DNA of 32,574 nt from Kiritimatiellota bacterium (GTDB lineage Bacteria; Verrucomicrobiota; Kiritimatiellia; Kiritimatiellales; Tichowtungiaceae). Shown piece by piece: positions 6,531 through 30,298 of the stretch. The translations under genes and the position numbers were made by a program. The first letter of the stretch is position 1. The number at the start of each line of letters is the position of its first letter. A model generated the notes under the pieces. The model made no database searches, was not told the origin of the DNA, and worked only from the letters and a program-made list of their open reading frames with translations. The stretch covers positions 1-32,574 of the forward strand of contig JACNKZ010000066.1 in NCBI GenBank assembly GCA_014381785.1. The letters are read 5' to 3'.

Positions 6531-8123
6531 CTACCGCCGCAGGGCGCGGGTGAATTCGCGGAGCTCGGGGGCGCGGAAGATCAGTGATGCGATTAGATAG
6601 ACGCCGCTACCGGCGGCGATGCTGACCAACACCGAAACAATCTGCTGAATTTTATCCCCGGCGGCCTGCCCTGAGCTCGTCAGCCCATGCACAAACAAAA
6701 CAACGGAGGCCATCAGGGCGGCTGCTCCAAAAGAGCGGGCGGCGGTGGCTCCGATTTTTTTCCAGTCCGGTTTTCCAATGCGGTTCTGCAGAATGAGCGC
6801 GAGGCAACTCATGTTGAACACCGCAGAAAGCACGGTGGCGAAAGCGATCCCGGCGTGTTTGACCGCCTGCGGGAGCGTAACAATAAAGATGATGTTGAGC
6901 GCGAGGTTGAGCGCAACGGCGATCATGCCGATTTTGACCGGAGTTTTGGTGTCCTGCATGCCGTAGAAGGCGGGCACAAAAATTTTGGCGAGGCTGAAGA
7001 CGACCAGACCCGGCGCGTAGGCCTGAAGCGCGATGGCGGTCATCCAGGTGGAATCGGCGGAAAACTCTTTCCACTCAAAGATCATCTGCACAACGGGCGT
7101 GGCCAGCACCAGCAGGCCGACTGCGGCGGGAATCATGATAAAGAGCAGATGGCGCAGGCCGTCGGTGACTCCTTTGCGGATTTTTTCGTGGTCGTTACGC
7201 GCGGCGTGGCCGGAAAACACAGGCAGTAGCACGGTACCGAGCGCGGTGGCAATGATGCCGAGCGGGAAGTAGATGAGCCGTTCGCTGAAGAAGAGCGCGG
7301 CGGGCGCTTCTTTGCTGACCCACATGGCGAGCAGACGGTCGATGACGACGTTGAGCTGTAACACGGCCATGCCCAGCGCGGCGGGGCCCATCAGGCGCAT
7401 GATGCGCATCACCTTTTCATCTCTCCAGCCAGACAAAATAGTTGGGTGCAGGCTCAGCCTGCTTCCAAGGTTTGGAAATCTGGGTGCCCAGCCGAAGCGG
7501 CGAAGCATCGGCCACTGGACGGCCCACTGCAAAAAACCGGCCAGCAGGATGGCCCAGGCGACATAACGGATTTTCTCTTCGGGCGAGTTTCCAAGGTTTG
7601 GAACCACGAGCAGCATGGTGCCGATCCAGAGAATGTTCAAAAGGCTCGGCGCAAAGGCGGATACCGCAAAATGATGAAAGCTGTTGAGGATGCCCATCGA
7701 GACGGCGGCGAGGCAGATGAAGATCATGTAGGGCATCATGATCTGGAGCAGTTCGAGCACGGCGGCGGCTTTGGGGTTGGCGACCGATGCGGTGGCGGCA
7801 AACAGAATGACGGCGAGTGTGATGAGGGTGAGTACCGCCGCCAGCAGAACGAGCACCCGGTTAACGAGCGTCCAGGCAGCCTCGTCGCCCTCTTTCTCGC
7901 GGGTTTCCACCAGCACGGGCACGAAGGCGGAGGAAAGTGCGCCCTCCCCGAACAGCCGGCGGAATAGATTCGGAATGGTAAAGGCGACAACGAATGCGGA
8001 CATGACCAGTGAGGTGCCGAAGAAGCCGGCCATGAGCACGTCGCGCACGAGGCCGAGCAGACGGCTGAGCGAGGTGAAGGCGCTCACCACTCCGGTCGAC
8101 CGAATGATCCGCCCCTTTTCCAT
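6531..8123 (-). CDS. murJ: Lipid II flippase MurJ
   Basis: Polytopic inner-membrane flippase that moves lipid II to the periplasm for peptidoglycan synthesis. The 530-aa product begins MEKGRIIRSTGVVSAFTSLSRLLGLVRDVLMAGFFG and shows the MVF family segments NLFRRLFGEGALSSAFVPVL, IYFPLGIIATALGTVLLPVFS and YGMQDTKTPVKIG. An upstream in-frame extension to 8246 is rejected: the ATG at 8123 overlaps the preceding gene's stop by 1 nt (TGATG), indicating coupling. Two TTCCAAGGTTTGGAA palindromes lie in frame, encoding PNLG at about residues 174-178 and 216-220. Around the second, about 16 residues seem inserted relative to typical MurJ. Confidence 0.95.
   Translation of the reverse strand: MEKGRIIRSTGVVSAFTSLSRLLGLVRDVLMAGFFGTSLVMSAFVVAFTIPNLFRRLFGEGALSSAFVPVLVETREKEGDEAAWTLVNRVLVLLAAVLTLITLAVILFAATASVANPKAAAVLELLQIMMPYMIFICLAAVSMGILNSFHHFAVSAFAPSLLNILWIGTMLLVVPNLGNSPEEKIRYVAWAILLAGFLQWAVQWPMLRRFGWAPRFPNLGSRLSLHPTILSGWRDEKVMRIMRLMGPAALGMAVLQLNVVIDRLLAMWVSKEAPAALFFSERLIYFPLGIIATALGTVLLPVFSGHAARNDHEKIRKGVTDGLRHLLFIMIPAAVGLLVLATPVVQMIFEWKEFSADSTWMTAIALQAYAPGLVVFSLAKIFVPAFYGMQDTKTPVKIGMIAVALNLALNIIFIVTLPQAVKHAGIAFATVLSAVFNMSCLALILQNRIGKPDWKKIGATAARSFGAAALMASVVLFVHGLTSSGQAAGDKIQQIVSVLVSIAAGSGVYLIASLIFRAPELREFTRALRR
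7443..7462. repeat. 20-bp dispersed repeat TGGGTGCAGGCTCAGCCTGC (copy in murJ)
   Basis: Identical, on the opposite strand, to 23085-23104. It contains the near-palindrome GCAGGC-TCA-GCCTGC. Here it directly abuts the TTCCAA palindrome at 7463, and a third dyad CTGGGTGCCCAG follows at 7480-7491. The murJ frame reads through all three without a stop. Confidence 0.85.
7463..7477. repeat. TTCCAA-NNN-TTGGAA palindrome inside murJ (copy 1)
   Basis: Perfect arms, centre GGT: TTCCAAGGTTTGGAA. In the murJ sense it reads as TTCCAAACCTTGGAA and encodes F-PNLG-S. Confidence 0.9.
7589..7603. repeat. TTCCAA-NNN-TTGGAA palindrome inside murJ (copy 2)
   Basis: Same 15-mer and orientation as 7463-7477, encoding V-PNLG-N in a loop of MurJ. 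The two copies are 126 bp apart, a multiple of three, so both use the same reading frame. Confidence 0.9.
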
Positions 8124-15575: not shown

Positions 15576-15590
15576 TTCCAATGTTTGGAA
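15576..15590. repeat. TTCCAA-NNN-TTGGAA palindrome upstream of or within the LpxC-like gene
   Basis: Perfect arms, centre TGT. If translation starts at GTG 15536, the copy is coding (V-PMFG-T). If it starts at ATG 15665, the copy lies in the leader. Confidence 0.88.
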
Positions 15591-17678: not shown

Positions 17679-18616
17679 TGAATGCACTGATTTTAACAGA
17701 TGGAAAGCCGGGACACTTCAACCAGTCGGTTGCGCTCTGCACAAACACCGGGCTCAACTACGAGCTGGTTGAGGTGAGCTACCGCAGCAAAACCGCCAAA
17801 GCGCTCTCTTACCTATTTGATCACCGCGGCATTTATACGGAAAAACTCTTCACCTGCCACCTGTCACCTGCCACCTGTCACCTGATTGTTTCCACCGGCT
17901 CAACAACCTTCTACCCCAACAAAGTGCTGGCCCGCAAACTGGGCCTGCCCAACATCGCCATTCTGAATCCGAAAGGCTACCGCCCCGACTTCTCCGCCAT
18001 TCTGTGCCCGGCCTACGACCACCCGCCGAAAAAAGAAAACATCATCGAACTGCCGCTCAATCTCTGTGCGGCCGACCCCGCCTTCTTTGAAGAAAAGACG
18101 GCGGAATTCAAAACCAAACACGCGGCGCAGGCTCCGGCCGTCGGGTTTATCATCGGCGGCTCCAACGCCGTGTCCACCATGGATGCGGCCGAACTGAAAA
18201 CAAAGCTGGAGCAGGCCTTCGCACTCACCGAAGGTTGCGAACGCTGGGTGACCACCTCGCGCCGCACCCCAAAAGAGGTGGAAGAGCTCATTGAGGCGCT
18301 TCCTTTTGACTACACCCTGATCAACTCGTGCGATCCGTACAATCCCGTCCCGGCCTTCATCCAGCTGTGCGACCGTCTGTTCGTCACCTCCGACTCCGCC
18401 TCTATGGCCAGCGAAACGGCCAGCTTCGGCAGCGCCAACGTGGAAATTCTGATGAACCGCCAGCTGAAGAGCCCCAACAAATTCGAGGAGCTTTTCCAAG
18501 GTTTGGAAAAACGCGGCGCGGTGCATCTGTTCGATGGAACCCTCGGCCATGCCGACAAAAAAATCGACCTGGCCCCCCTGCTCAAACAGGCACTGAACCG
18601 CGCGATCCGGCACTAA
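17678..18616 (+). CDS. ELM1/GtrOC1-family putative glycosyltransferase
   Basis: A 312-aa protein opening MNALILTDGKPGHFNQSVAL and containing LIVSTGSTTFYPNKVLARKLGLPNIAILNP, GFIIGGSNA, WVTTSRRTPKEVEELI and LFVTSDSASMASETASFG. These match the ELM1/GtrOC1 family, which includes predicted LPS core glycosyltransferases with a GT-B-like fold. Coupling to an LpxL-type gene supports a role in LPS assembly. Two repeats are embedded: a CACCTGY heptamer tract encoding CHLSPATCHL (about residues 58-69), and a TTCCAAGGTTTGGAA palindrome encoding FQGLE (residues 273-277). Confidence 0.85.
   Translation: MNALILTDGKPGHFNQSVALCTNTGLNYELVEVSYRSKTAKALSYLFDHRGIYTEKLFTCHLSPATCHLIVSTGSTTFYPNKVLARKLGLPNIAILNPKGYRPDFSAILCPAYDHPPKKENIIELPLNLCAADPAFFEEKTAEFKTKHAAQAPAVGFIIGGSNAVSTMDAAELKTKLEQAFALTEGCERWVTTSRRTPKEVEELIEALPFDYTLINSCDPYNPVPAFIQLCDRLFVTSDSASMASETASFGSANVEILMNRQLKSPNKFEELFQGLEKRGAVHLFDGTLGHADKKIDLAPLLKQALNRAIRH
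17851..17884 (+). repeat. Heptanucleotide tandem repeat CACCTGY inside the glycosyltransferase gene
   Basis: The order CACCTGC, CACCTGT, CACCTGC, CACCTGT, CACCTG gives 4.9 units in 34 bp. A unit length of 7 is not a multiple of three, so gain or loss of a unit would shift the frame near residue 60. Confidence 0.92.
18494..18508. repeat. TTCCAA-NNN-TTGGAA palindrome inside the ELM1-like gene
   Basis: Perfect arms, centre GGT on the coding strand, in the frame TTC CAA GGT TTG GAA (FQGLE). Confidence 0.9.
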
Positions 18617-20107: not shown

Positions 20108-20122
20108 TTCCAATGGTTGGAA
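20108..20122. repeat. TTCCAA-NNN-TTGGAA palindrome, intergenic (right of pair)
   Basis: TTCCAATGGTTGGAA with perfect arms. It lies 57 bp after the previous copy and 64 bp before corA. Confidence 0.87.
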
Positions 20123-21339: not shown

Positions 21340-22983
21340 ATGGATGAAGCCGCGAAAAAAATGAAGTCAAACCGGATCGTCGTCTCGATCTGCTTTTTAC
21401 TGGCATTGATGGTATGGGGTGTTTTCGGACAGACGCTTCGCTATGAGTTCGTCAACTATGATGACGGCAGGTATGTGTACGAGAACCCGGTTATATCAAA
21501 AGGGGTGACACTGGAGAGTTCGCGCTGGATCCTCACGCATCCACACGGGGTTAATTGGCATCCGCTGACATCCTTTTCCCACATGCTAGATTGCCAGATC
21601 TACGGACTGGCCCCCGGCGGACACCACGGGACAAATGTCTTGCTCCATATGGCGACAGCGATTCTTCTTTTTCTGGTGTTACGACAGATAACCGGCTCGC
21701 TCTGGCGCAGTGCGGTTGTGACCGCACTATTTGCCATCCATCCGCTACGGGTTGAATCTGTCGCCTGGATTTCTGAACGGAAGGATGTGCTCAGCGGTCT
21801 CTTTTTCATGCTGACGCTCGGAGCCTATATCCGCTACGTGCGCCGTCCGTTTTCATCCGGGCGCTATGCGACGATCGCCGTTTTTTTCATTTTGGGAATG
21901 ATGTCCAAACCCATGCTGGTGACTCTGCCATTCGTTCTCTTGTTGCTGGACTTCTGGCCGCTGGGCCGATTCCAAACCTTGGAAACAAAAAAAACGATCA
22001 TACGGCCGGTTCTTGAAAAAATCCCGCTGCTGCTGCTGTCTGCTGTTTTTTGCGGCATTACAGTGTGGGCTCAGCGGGGAGCGATCTCTATCGCCACGCC
22101 ACTGCCTGTTCCGTGGCGTTTCGGAAACGCTTTCTGTTCGTATGCAATCTACATCAAACAAATGATCTTCCCGTTCGGACTGGCGCTGCTTTACCCTCAT
22201 CAGGAAACCAACCTTCCGCTGTGGGAAATCGGCATATCCGTTACCCTGCTGGCCGGGATCTCCTGGGGCGTTTTTGCCGGACGAAAGAAATACCCATACC
22301 TGATAACCGGATGGTTTTGGTATCTCGGGATGCTGGCTCCCGTCATTGGAATCATGCAGGTTGGCCCACAGGCTCATGCGGATCGTTATACCTATCTTCC
22401 CCAGATCGGGCTGGCAATCATGGCCGTATGGCTGACAGCCGACTGGTGCACCTCCCCGCGATACCGCCGCGCGGTGCTGTCTACGGCTGCGGCAGCCGTT
22501 CTGACCCTCCTGGCTGTAACGGCGCACCGCCAAACCCGCTATTGGCACGACAGCGTCTCCCTCTGGACCCGCACGCTGACATGCACCGAAGGAAATTGTC
22601 TGGCTCAGAACAATCTGGGCGGCTTATTGGGCCAGAAGGGACAGTTCAAACAAGCTATCCTGCATTTTGAGAAGGCGCTTGAGATCAACCCGGATTTTGC
22701 CGATCCATCCTACAATCTGGGAGTTATACTTGGCTCACAGGGACAATTCGACAAAGCGATTCCGCATCTCGAAAAAGCACTGGCAATCAACCCGAATAAT
22801 GCAGAATGGCATTGCACGTTGGGTATCGTGTTTACCAAACAGACCAACTTCGTCGCGGCCATTCGGCAATACGAGAGGGCTCTGCAGATTAATCTGAACT
22901 GTATTGAAGCTGAAAACAGTCTGGCGGAAATTCCGCATCACGAACTGAAAAAAGAGCCTGCCGATAAGGATACAGTTGAGTGA
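21340..22983 (+). CDS. TMTC-like polytopic membrane protein with C-terminal TPR repeats
   Basis: A 547-aa protein with about ten membrane segments over residues 10-400 and about three TPR units at roughly 424-525 (NNLGGLLGQKGQFKQAILHFEKALEINPD and two more). The first extracytoplasmic loop has FVNYDDGRYVYENPVI, an acidic motif typical of GT-C glycosyltransferases. HHGTNVLLHMATAILLF and HPLRVESVAWISERKDVLSGLFFM match the TMTC/DUF1736 group. A role in sugar transfer to exported proteins or glycans is inferred from the fold, not shown. A TTCCAAACCTTGGAA palindrome encodes FQTLE (residues 211-215). A second ATG at 21361 is an alternative start. Confidence 0.82.
   Translation: MDEAAKKMKSNRIVVSICFLLALMVWGVFGQTLRYEFVNYDDGRYVYENPVISKGVTLESSRWILTHPHGVNWHPLTSFSHMLDCQIYGLAPGGHHGTNVLLHMATAILLFLVLRQITGSLWRSAVVTALFAIHPLRVESVAWISERKDVLSGLFFMLTLGAYIRYVRRPFSSGRYATIAVFFILGMMSKPMLVTLPFVLLLLDFWPLGRFQTLETKKTIIRPVLEKIPLLLLSAVFCGITVWAQRGAISIATPLPVPWRFGNAFCSYAIYIKQMIFPFGLALLYPHQETNLPLWEIGISVTLLAGISWGVFAGRKKYPYLITGWFWYLGMLAPVIGIMQVGPQAHADRYTYLPQIGLAIMAVWLTADWCTSPRYRRAVLSTAAAAVLTLLAVTAHRQTRYWHDSVSLWTRTLTCTEGNCLAQNNLGGLLGQKGQFKQAILHFEKALEINPDFADPSYNLGVILGSQGQFDKAIPHLEKALAINPNNAEWHCTLGIVFTKQTNFVAAIRQYERALQINLNCIEAENSLAEIPHHELKKEPADKDTVE
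21970..21984. repeat. TTCCAA-NNN-TTGGAA palindrome inside the TMTC-like gene
   Basis: Perfect arms, centre ACC on the coding strand (GGT on the other), in the frame TTC CAA ACC TTG GAA. Confidence 0.9.
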
Positions 22984-23084: not shown

Positions 23085-23104
23085 GCAGGCTGAGCCTGCA
23101 CCCA
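23085..23104. repeat. 20-bp dispersed repeat, second copy (reverse orientation)
   Basis: Reverse complement of TGGGTGCAGGCTCAGCCTGC at 7443-7462, identical over all 20 bp. It lies between the fabF terminator and the fabF stop codon and near the split TTCCAA element. Confidence 0.85.
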
Positions 23105-23125
23105 TTTATTTTCCCCCTCGGGGCC

Positions 23126-29275: not shown

Positions 29276-29760
29276 TTTTGCGACTCATTTGATTTCTTCA
29301 GGGCGTCATTCACCACCGCCGGAACAAATTCAGAGATGTCCCCGCCGAGCGCGGCAACCTGTTTTACATTCGTGGAGCTCAGAAAACTGTAATCCTGCTT
29401 CGGCATCAGAAAAAGCGTTTCAATATCCGGGGCCAGCCGGCGGTTGGTCAGCGCCATTTGGAATTCATACTCAAAATCCGAAAAAGCCCGCAATCCACGG
29501 ATCAACACATGGGCCTCTTGTGACCGGGCGTACTCCACCAGCAACCCGCCGAACGATGTCACCGTCACATTCGAAAGCTGCTTCACCGAGGCTTTAACCA
29601 GCTCCATGCGCTCTTCCTGTGAAAACAGCGGGGTCTTGCCCGTCACCGCGGTGACTGCCACAACCAGCTCCGGAAAAATCCGCGCCGCCCGCTCGACTAC
29701 GTCGAGATGCCCCAACGTCATCGGATCGAATGTGCCAGCATAAATCGCTTTTTTATTCAT
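29272..29760 (-). CDS. coaD: Phosphopantetheine adenylyltransferase
   Basis: Penultimate enzyme of CoA synthesis: 4'-phosphopantetheine plus ATP to dephospho-CoA. The 162-aa product opens KKAIYAGTFDPMTLGHLDVVERA, with the TxGH nucleotidyltransferase motif, and has LIRGLRAFSDFEYEFQMALTNRRL and the C-terminal FLSSTNVKQVAALGGDISEFVP. It overlaps rsmD by 8 nt upstream and the DUF177 gene by 4 nt downstream. CoA and ACP cofactor supply fits the fatty-acid cluster. Confidence 0.97.
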   Translation of the reverse strand: MNKKAIYAGTFDPMTLGHLDVVERAARIFPELVVAVTAVTGKTPLFSQEERMELVKASVKQLSNVTVTSFGGLLVEYARSQEAHVLIRGLRAFSDFEYEFQMALTNRRLAPDIETLFLMPKQDYSFLSSTNVKQVAALGGDISEFVPAVVNDALKKSNESQK

Positions 29761-30298
29761 GATTGCGCTCCAGAAAAATCACTTTGGTTGAGCTGTACTT
29801 CTTTTCCTTCAATAAAATCCACTCAGCGGGGAGAGTGTAAGAGTCCCGCTTCTGCATTTCAAACACCAAAAGCCCGTCCGGAGCCAGTGCATCGCCCACC
29901 GCATTGAGTAACAATGGCACATCCACCTCGTCGTACGGCGGATCGGCAAAAATCAGATCGAACGGCCCGACCGGCCTTTTAAGGTAGTCGTAGACGTCCG
30001 CACGCACCACTTCCCAGGCTCCCAGGCCCGCAGTCGGCTCCAAGGTTTGGAAGTTTTTCTGCAGATTCTTCCAATGTTTGGAAACGTTTTCGACGGCGGT
30101 CACGCTGGCGGCACCGCGGCTCCAGGCCTCGAGCCCCAGTCCGCCCGCGCCGGCAAACAGATCGAGCACCCGCGCTTCGGGAACATACGCGGCAACGGAC
30201 GAAAAGACCGCTTCGCGCGTCCGTTCGGTCGTCGGACGCACACCCTCCTTCGGAACCTTGAACGTCCGCCCCTTTAAAATGCCACTGGTTATTCTCAT
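29753..30298 (-). CDS. rsmD: 16S rRNA (guanine966-N2)-methyltransferase
   Basis: Class I SAM methyltransferase that modifies G966 of 16S rRNA. The 181-aa product has MRITSGILKGRTFKVPKEGVRPTTERTREAVF, the SAM-binding VLDLFAGAGGLGLEAWSRGA and the catalytic FADPPYDEV. Two TTCCAA palindromes lie in frame, encoding SKHW (about residues 72-77) and FQTLE (about 83-87) in the helix after VTAVEN. The protein length stays normal, so the palindromes seem to have replaced rather than lengthened this helix. It is the first gene of the rsmD-fabF run. Confidence 0.95.
   Translation of the reverse strand: MRITSGILKGRTFKVPKEGVRPTTERTREAVFSSVAAYVPEARVLDLFAGAGGLGLEAWSRGAASVTAVENVSKHWKNLQKNFQTLEPTAGLGAWEVVRADVYDYLKRPVGPFDLIFADPPYDEVDVPLLLNAVGDALAPDGLLVFEMQKRDSYTLPAEWILLKEKKYSSTKVIFLERNHE
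30038..30052. repeat. TTCCAA-NNN-TTGGAA palindrome inside rsmD (copy 1)
   Basis: CTCCAAGGTTTGGAA, one mismatch at the outer position; encodes FQTLE in the rsmD sense. Confidence 0.85.
30069..30083. repeat. TTCCAA-NNN-TTGGAA palindrome inside rsmD (copy 2)
   Basis: TTCCAATGTTTGGAA with perfect arms; encodes SKHWK in the rsmD sense. It is 16 bp from copy 1 and is read in a different codon phase. Confidence 0.9.

Follow-up and report, generated by a model that had tools for sequence, protein, structure and literature searches.

The murJ locus

The window, by which the whole stretch of DNA analysed is meant, comprises 32,574 nucleotides from a Kiritimatiellota bacterium (GCA_014381785.1, contig JACNKZ010000066.1, positions 1-32,574, forward strand). 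The source genome, G000, is a draft assembly of 2.22 Mb, and its gene predictions are our own calls. The lipid II flippase gene murJ lies on the minus strand at 6531-8123 and encodes 530 residues that match Pfam MurJ at 369 bits and the solved E. coli-type MurJ structures at 2e-76. The initial annotation described three palindromes lying end to end within this gene, TGGGTGCAGGCTCAGCCTGC (a 20-bp repeat, 7443-7462), TTCCAAGGTTTGGAA (7463-7477) and CTGGGTGCCCAG (7480-7491), and proposed that they form one composite that was absorbed into a loop of the protein, adding about 16 residues. All three are present and are read in frame on the minus strand as part of MurJ (...GWAPRFPNLGSRLSLHPTILSGWR...), and the frame stays open through the insert. 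The stretch is made of three unlike things, namely a genome-wide palindrome, a hairpin cassette and a probable chance palindrome.

The 20-bp repeat recurs in inverted orientation at 23085-23104, and the genome holds 17 copies of its 15-bp core. The extra DNA in murJ is centred on the hairpin core GCAGGCTGAGCCTGC (7448-7462, minus strand), which adjoins the TTCCAAGGTTTGGAA palindrome and together with the tail ACCCAACTATTTT (7435-7447) makes up the hairpin cassette. A second cassette of this kind is found in the window at 23085-23112, on the plus strand and between genes, with an inverted 28-bp match of 93% to 7435-7462. The existence of an insert in MurJ is borne out, but its limits differ from those first given: the excess over the congeneric proteins (G005, G006 and G010) is 13 codons, PNLGSRLSLHPTI, at about 7437-7475 on the minus strand with limits that depend on the alignment, and about 10 codons over G001. 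The A-P-R-F of this stretch is homologous to K-P-E-F or K-P-H-F in the relatives. The solved E. coli-type proteins are also about 13 codons shorter at this point, and neither their chains nor the MurJ proteins of the sister family contain the extra residues, which were therefore not encountered in these proteins apart from the repeat. In the congeners it is exactly the GCAGG part that is missing at the loop, with the exception of G009, whose murJ (L078 51-1580) carries the hairpin GCAGGCTCAGCCTGC in this loop as well, but inverted. The G009 gene also has a third palindrome near its 3' end.

The TTCCAA palindrome at 7463-7477 is read as P-N-L-G in the TM6-TM7 loop, which is bounded by W-x-P and by the conserved helix that comes next. 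The same loop holds an exact palindrome in G001 and G010 and one with a single mismatch in G005, in two reading frames and in each case without the GCAGG part. The loop palindrome must therefore predate the insert or be independent of it, and this, together with its being a separate genome-wide motif that originates by substitution and not by insertion, speaks against a single composite. A second copy, which had been overlooked, lies at 7589-7603, exactly 126 bp (12.0 x 10.5) from the first. It occupies a P-x-x-G that is common to all relatives, without indels, and its arms are exact in G001, G005, G006 and G009 while the centres differ (PNIG, PRFG, PNLG and PNIG, respectively). CTGGGTGCCCAG also falls outside any composite, given that no other copy exists in 918 kb and that it sits on ancestral codons, G-W-x-P, common to the relatives. 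Perfect 12-bp palindromes occur at 4.7 per kb across the same 918 kb, and chance is probably the simplest account of this one.

Five further copies of the TTCCAA motif are found in the window. Three are within predicted genes: at 18494-18508 in an ELM1-like gene, where it is read as F-Q-G-L-E and has one mismatch in G009 and three in G011 with no indel, at 21970-21984 in the gene of a TPR protein (21340-22983), and at 30069-30083 in the predicted gene 29753-30241. Two are intergenic, at 15576-15590 upstream of an lpxC-like gene and at 20108-20122. A search of the window against Rfam returned no family. At 1312-1455, within a minus-strand gene, the window also contains a 57-bp direct repeat (96%).

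Abundance and location of the TTCCAA palindrome

TTCCAANNNTTGGAA has 595 exact matches across the 2.22 Mb of the genome, versus 1 for a reversed-pattern control, and 161 copies yield the consensus (T)TTTCCAA-N-S-N-TTGGAAA(A). The spacing and ortholog tests were made on 41% of the genome (918 kb), with well-conserved genes. The length of the centre is strict, with 252 copies having 3 bp and only 0-2 having 1, 2, 4 or 5 bp, and a control in which the arms are everted gives 1 site in the 918 kb. Conservation of the stem ends after 8-9 bp. About half of the copies (132 of 252) are inside predicted genes, while coding DNA makes up 84% of the sequence. Intergenic DNA is enriched 3-fold in the palindrome. 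The genic copies use all three reading frames, FQxLE being the commonest reading, and are scattered along the length of the genes. Per kb, density is 1.52 in convergent gaps, 0.83 in co-directional gaps and 0.59 in divergent ones, and at some intergenic sites the palindrome tops a GC-rich stem with a T run behind it. The composite pattern was not found in viral contigs.

Among 146 genomes of the class Kiritimatiellae, the 17-mer TTTCCAANNNTTGGAAA occurs 0 to 1108 times per genome; outside the class, each of 98 genomes of the same phylum has 0 or 1. Rich and empty genera stand side by side, as in family f27, where two genomes of genus g47 have 452 and 407 copies and genus g51 has 0. Within the genus of the source genome, G005, G007 and G008 have 30-38 copies versus about 330 in their sisters, and single-mismatch relics at shared sites suggest a recent loss of motif maintenance.

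Origin by substitution and constraint on the DNA

Thirty-three genic sites were aligned with orthologs from congeners and from two species of the sister family. The palindrome is gained and lost by point substitution: genic copies lie on homologous, mostly ungapped codons, the differences are point changes, and an indel coincides with the palindrome in only 7 of 92 site comparisons, all of these with congeners. Among congeners the arms have a nucleotide identity of 0.85, compared with 0.57 for the 3-bp centre and 0.75 for the remaining gene sequence. The retention of codons was then compared at conserved amino acids, codons in the arms being set against identical codons at other places in those genes (Mantel-Haenszel). 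The same codon was retained in the arms 193 times versus 137 expected (z = 9.06), and the fractions kept in the arms and elsewhere were 0.79 and 0.45 for CAA, 0.84 and 0.26 for CCA, 0.89 and 0.34 for GGA, and 0.53 and 0.21 for TTG. The arms are maintained as DNA beyond what the amino acids need, and the centre drifts freely.

Helical phasing of neighbouring copies

Palindrome copies are placed at whole helical turns from their neighbours. Preferred distances from one copy to the next are 22, 31/32, 42, 52/53, 62/63, 72-75, 83/84, 95, 104, 126, 136, 147, 157 and 166-168 bp, with a best period of 10.4-10.5 bp (R = 0.81, 63 perfect pairs). Phasing is equally strong inside and between genes and extends to about 170 bp; genic pairs alone give R = 0.88 (n = 24), pairs with a degenerate partner (up to 3 mismatches) R = 0.70 (n = 328), and far neighbours (260-1500 bp) R = 0.27. 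Because pairs within a cluster are not independent, a further test took one pair per cluster and removed the distances 31, 32 and 42; R was 0.67 (n = 30), a value reached by 0 of 100,000 simulations. The spacers between paired copies are unrelated in sequence.

Copies in other families of the class are also phased, with other spacer sequences; in G048 the distances are 31/32/63/94. Arrays run 22-30-31-31-31-22 and 22-31-31-30-22 in G104, 22-31-30-22 in G122 and 31-31-32-31 in G162, again with unrelated spacers. In family f27 (L266 3082-3251, L267 2842-2986 and L269 2989-3108) the arrays are symmetric, with end spacings of 22 bp and inner ones of 30-31 bp.

The hairpin cassette and the 42-bp unit

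The GCAGG hairpin lies directly 3' of TTGGAA in most of its copies. From palindrome to palindrome the arrangement is a 42-bp unit, consisting of a palindrome, a 27-bp cassette and a second palindrome, which corresponds to four turns and 14 codons. GCAGGCTCAGCCTGC with its tail is the hairpin cassette of this unit, and it was inserted next to the palindrome without a shift of frame. In the murJ unit the second palindrome either has decayed or was incomplete from the start, and the gene grew by a net 39 bp instead of 42.

The hairpins of the cassettes are exchangeable within 42-bp units, with matched changes in the stem. Six forms were seen: GCAGGC-TGA-GCCTGC, GAAGGC-TGA-GCCTTC, GCCAT-AGC-ATGGC, GCAAC-TGC-GTTGC, CCGAC-TGC-GTCGG and CTCAC-TGC-GTGAG. 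The combination of unlike stems with a similar tail (GGC-ACAGATTTT) among units of the source genome suggests a family of exchangeable modules.

Insertion of the cassette keeps the reading frame and brings no stop, with gains of 13 residues in MurJ, 14 in TrmH and 7 in phosphomannomutase. In TrmH the 42-bp unit adds exactly 14 residues, flanked by two sites that are conserved even in the sister family, and KamA has two units in tandem. In-frame GCAGG cassettes are also found in a NUDIX protein and in a hydrogenase maturation protease. In a TPR gene the hairpin replaced residues and the length is unchanged, which means that insertion is not its only way in.

A link between the cassette and RAYT/REP elements was considered and rejected, given that the flanks of six Y1_Tnp genes examined were without the cassette, bar a weak match to GCAGG on the 3' side of one gene. 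As a separate observation, a Y1_Tnp (RAYT-type) transposase domain lies inside the single open frame of a PriA helicase (L138 6684-9596, G000:C55), and another in one frame with a HypF-like protein, so named from sequence only (L105 10168-13269, G000:C74), where GRRDACDT..QASRLP repeats flank it. In many relatives Y1_Tnp is found in frames of 600-1080 residues, and in-frame transposase insertions may therefore be common in the order.

Interpretation of the murJ stretch

The reading that best accounts for these results, to which a probability of roughly 70% is given, is that the murJ stretch is a meeting of two dispersed systems, a putative recognition site acting at the level of the DNA and a set of hairpin cassettes. 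The proposal of a repeat taken into the MurJ loop stands in part: a dispersed repeat and an in-frame insert are there, but three palindromes joined in one composite are not. The initial annotation was correct that there is an insert but not on its extent, and it overlooked the genome-wide system.

The TTCCAA palindrome is probably the site of a putative protein that binds along one helix face. TTTTCCAANSNTTGGAAAA would be a DNA-level recognition site present several hundred times per genome, each copy being read by a putative dimeric DNA-binding protein of the Kiritimatiellae. The fact that neighbouring copies keep the same helix face points to joint binding of adjacent sites by a protein, and this protein may bridge or wrap them on that face in the manner of a nucleoid-organising protein or a global regulator. 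At positions where the encoded protein permits it, selection for the array of sites would shape the coding sequence (PNLG, FQxLE, SNxWK). The 20-bp repeat would be the GCAGG member of the cassette family that fills the 27-bp gap of the 42-bp unit, and a length of 42 bp may be favoured because 14 codons and four helical turns coincide in it, so that reading frame and helical phase are both kept. In murJ, the cassette would have landed beside a pre-existing palindrome in the TM6-TM7 loop, which we take to be cytoplasmic from MurJ topology, with a net gain of 13 residues that the flippase appears to tolerate. The wider proposal, in which a dimeric protein on phased TTTTCCAANSNTTGGAAAA arrays operates across the chromosome, the reshaping affects hundreds of codons, some of them in an essential flippase, and 42-bp hairpin modules that keep frame and phase propagate, is put forward tentatively, at slightly less than even odds.

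Lrp/AsnC was examined as the keeper of the motif and rejected. PF01037 is found in 57 of 60 genomes whatever their motif count, and the HTH is near-constant within the order f2, being nearly the same in the motif-rich G018 and G019 and in the motif-poor G015 and G016; there is no correspondence between this single Lrp/AsnC homologue and the motif.

Other readings of the palindrome were weighed. It could be a DNA-uptake sequence, in which case biased uptake during natural transformation would raise the copy number by point mutation, in genes as well as between them. The mode of origin and the genic share do resemble those of known uptake sequences (PMC1939737), and copies are common to congeners while gain and loss are patchy. 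Known uptake sequences are not palindromic (PMC1939737), and helical phasing over about 170 bp would not be predicted for them, which makes this reading unlikely.

It is very unlikely that the whole pattern reflects one mobile palindromic element of the Rickettsia type, inserted in frame in murJ and elsewhere. The GCAGG cassette does behave in this way in murJ, TrmH, KamA, phosphomannomutase and the genes of the NUDIX protein and the hydrogenase maturation protease, and Rickettsia palindromic elements (RPEs) insert in frame in genes (PMC10969869). For the TTCCAA palindrome, however, such an origin is largely refuted by the ortholog comparisons, in which so few sites coincide with an indel; moreover, the spacers of paired copies are unrelated and an element of this type does not predict helical phasing.

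The suggestion that the palindromes are RNA hairpins, serving as transcription terminators or mRNA-end structures, draws on their intergenic enrichment, their highest density between convergent genes and the GC-rich stems with T runs at some copies, but is rendered highly improbable by the half of copies that lie along the whole length of genes, by a stem conserved for only 8-9 bp and by genic phasing as strong as intergenic phasing. A methylation or self-marking target like cyanobacterial HIP1 would also be dispersed, kept at the DNA level and patchy among related genomes, as HIP1 and the alternate HIPs are with their methyltransferases (PMC4390886), but 12 fixed bases, a 3-bp gap and helix-phased arrays are so unlike HIP1 that this reading is hardly credible.

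Comparison with known systems

The function of dispersed oligonucleotides such as HIP1 and the uptake sequences has long been disputed, and counts alone are a poor guide to it. Here the positions are informative, given that neighbours share the same helix face both in genes and between them. A literature search on palindromes of Kiritimatiellota gave nothing relevant, and no description of a class-specific, phase-locked palindrome system was found in the literature searched. It is to such a larger system that the murJ insert points.

The GCAGG cassette resembles the RPEs (PMC10969869) in being an in-frame, dispersed palindromic repeat in unrelated genes; those elements are about 150 bp long, whereas the cassette measures 27 bp and belongs to a 42-bp unit whose anchor is a distinct genome-wide palindrome. 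With REP/RAYT systems it shares a short hairpin next to a tetranucleotide (GGGT + GCAGGC-TCA-GCCTGC), and Y1_Tnp genes are present in the genome, but the cassette is not at the flanks of the six such genes examined, the one weak match aside.

In Lrp/AsnC site clusters, palindromes of about 13-15 bp have their centres two or three turns apart and dimers bind on one face (PMC2995911). The spacings found here are alike (22 and 31/32 bp, also 42, 63 and beyond), but the sites number hundreds, are near-perfect and in many cases genic, and the near-universal Lrp homologue does not follow them. The uptake sequences of Neisseriaceae and Pasteurellaceae (PMC1939737, PMC3630211) are similar in their hundreds of copies, about half of them genic, in their point-mutation origin and in altering the proteome; PMC1939737 gives a genic share of 65% in H. 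influenzae and 35% in N. gonorrhoeae and an evolution by point mutation. They differ in being non-palindromic and, within the portions of these papers that are available, in having no reported helical phasing, whereas the present motif is palindromic and phased. HIP1 and the alternate HIPs of cyanobacteria (PMC4390886) are likewise overrepresented, dispersed palindromes with DNA-level upkeep and a patchy occurrence among relatives, but HIP1 has 8 contiguous bp, in contrast with the 6-3-6 arrangement, free centre, phased pairs and arrays and intergenic enrichment seen here. Set beside these systems, the palindrome system offers a clear case in which a demand at the level of the DNA has bent codons of essential genes, and 42 bp is a repeat length in which the genetic code and the DNA helix are met together.
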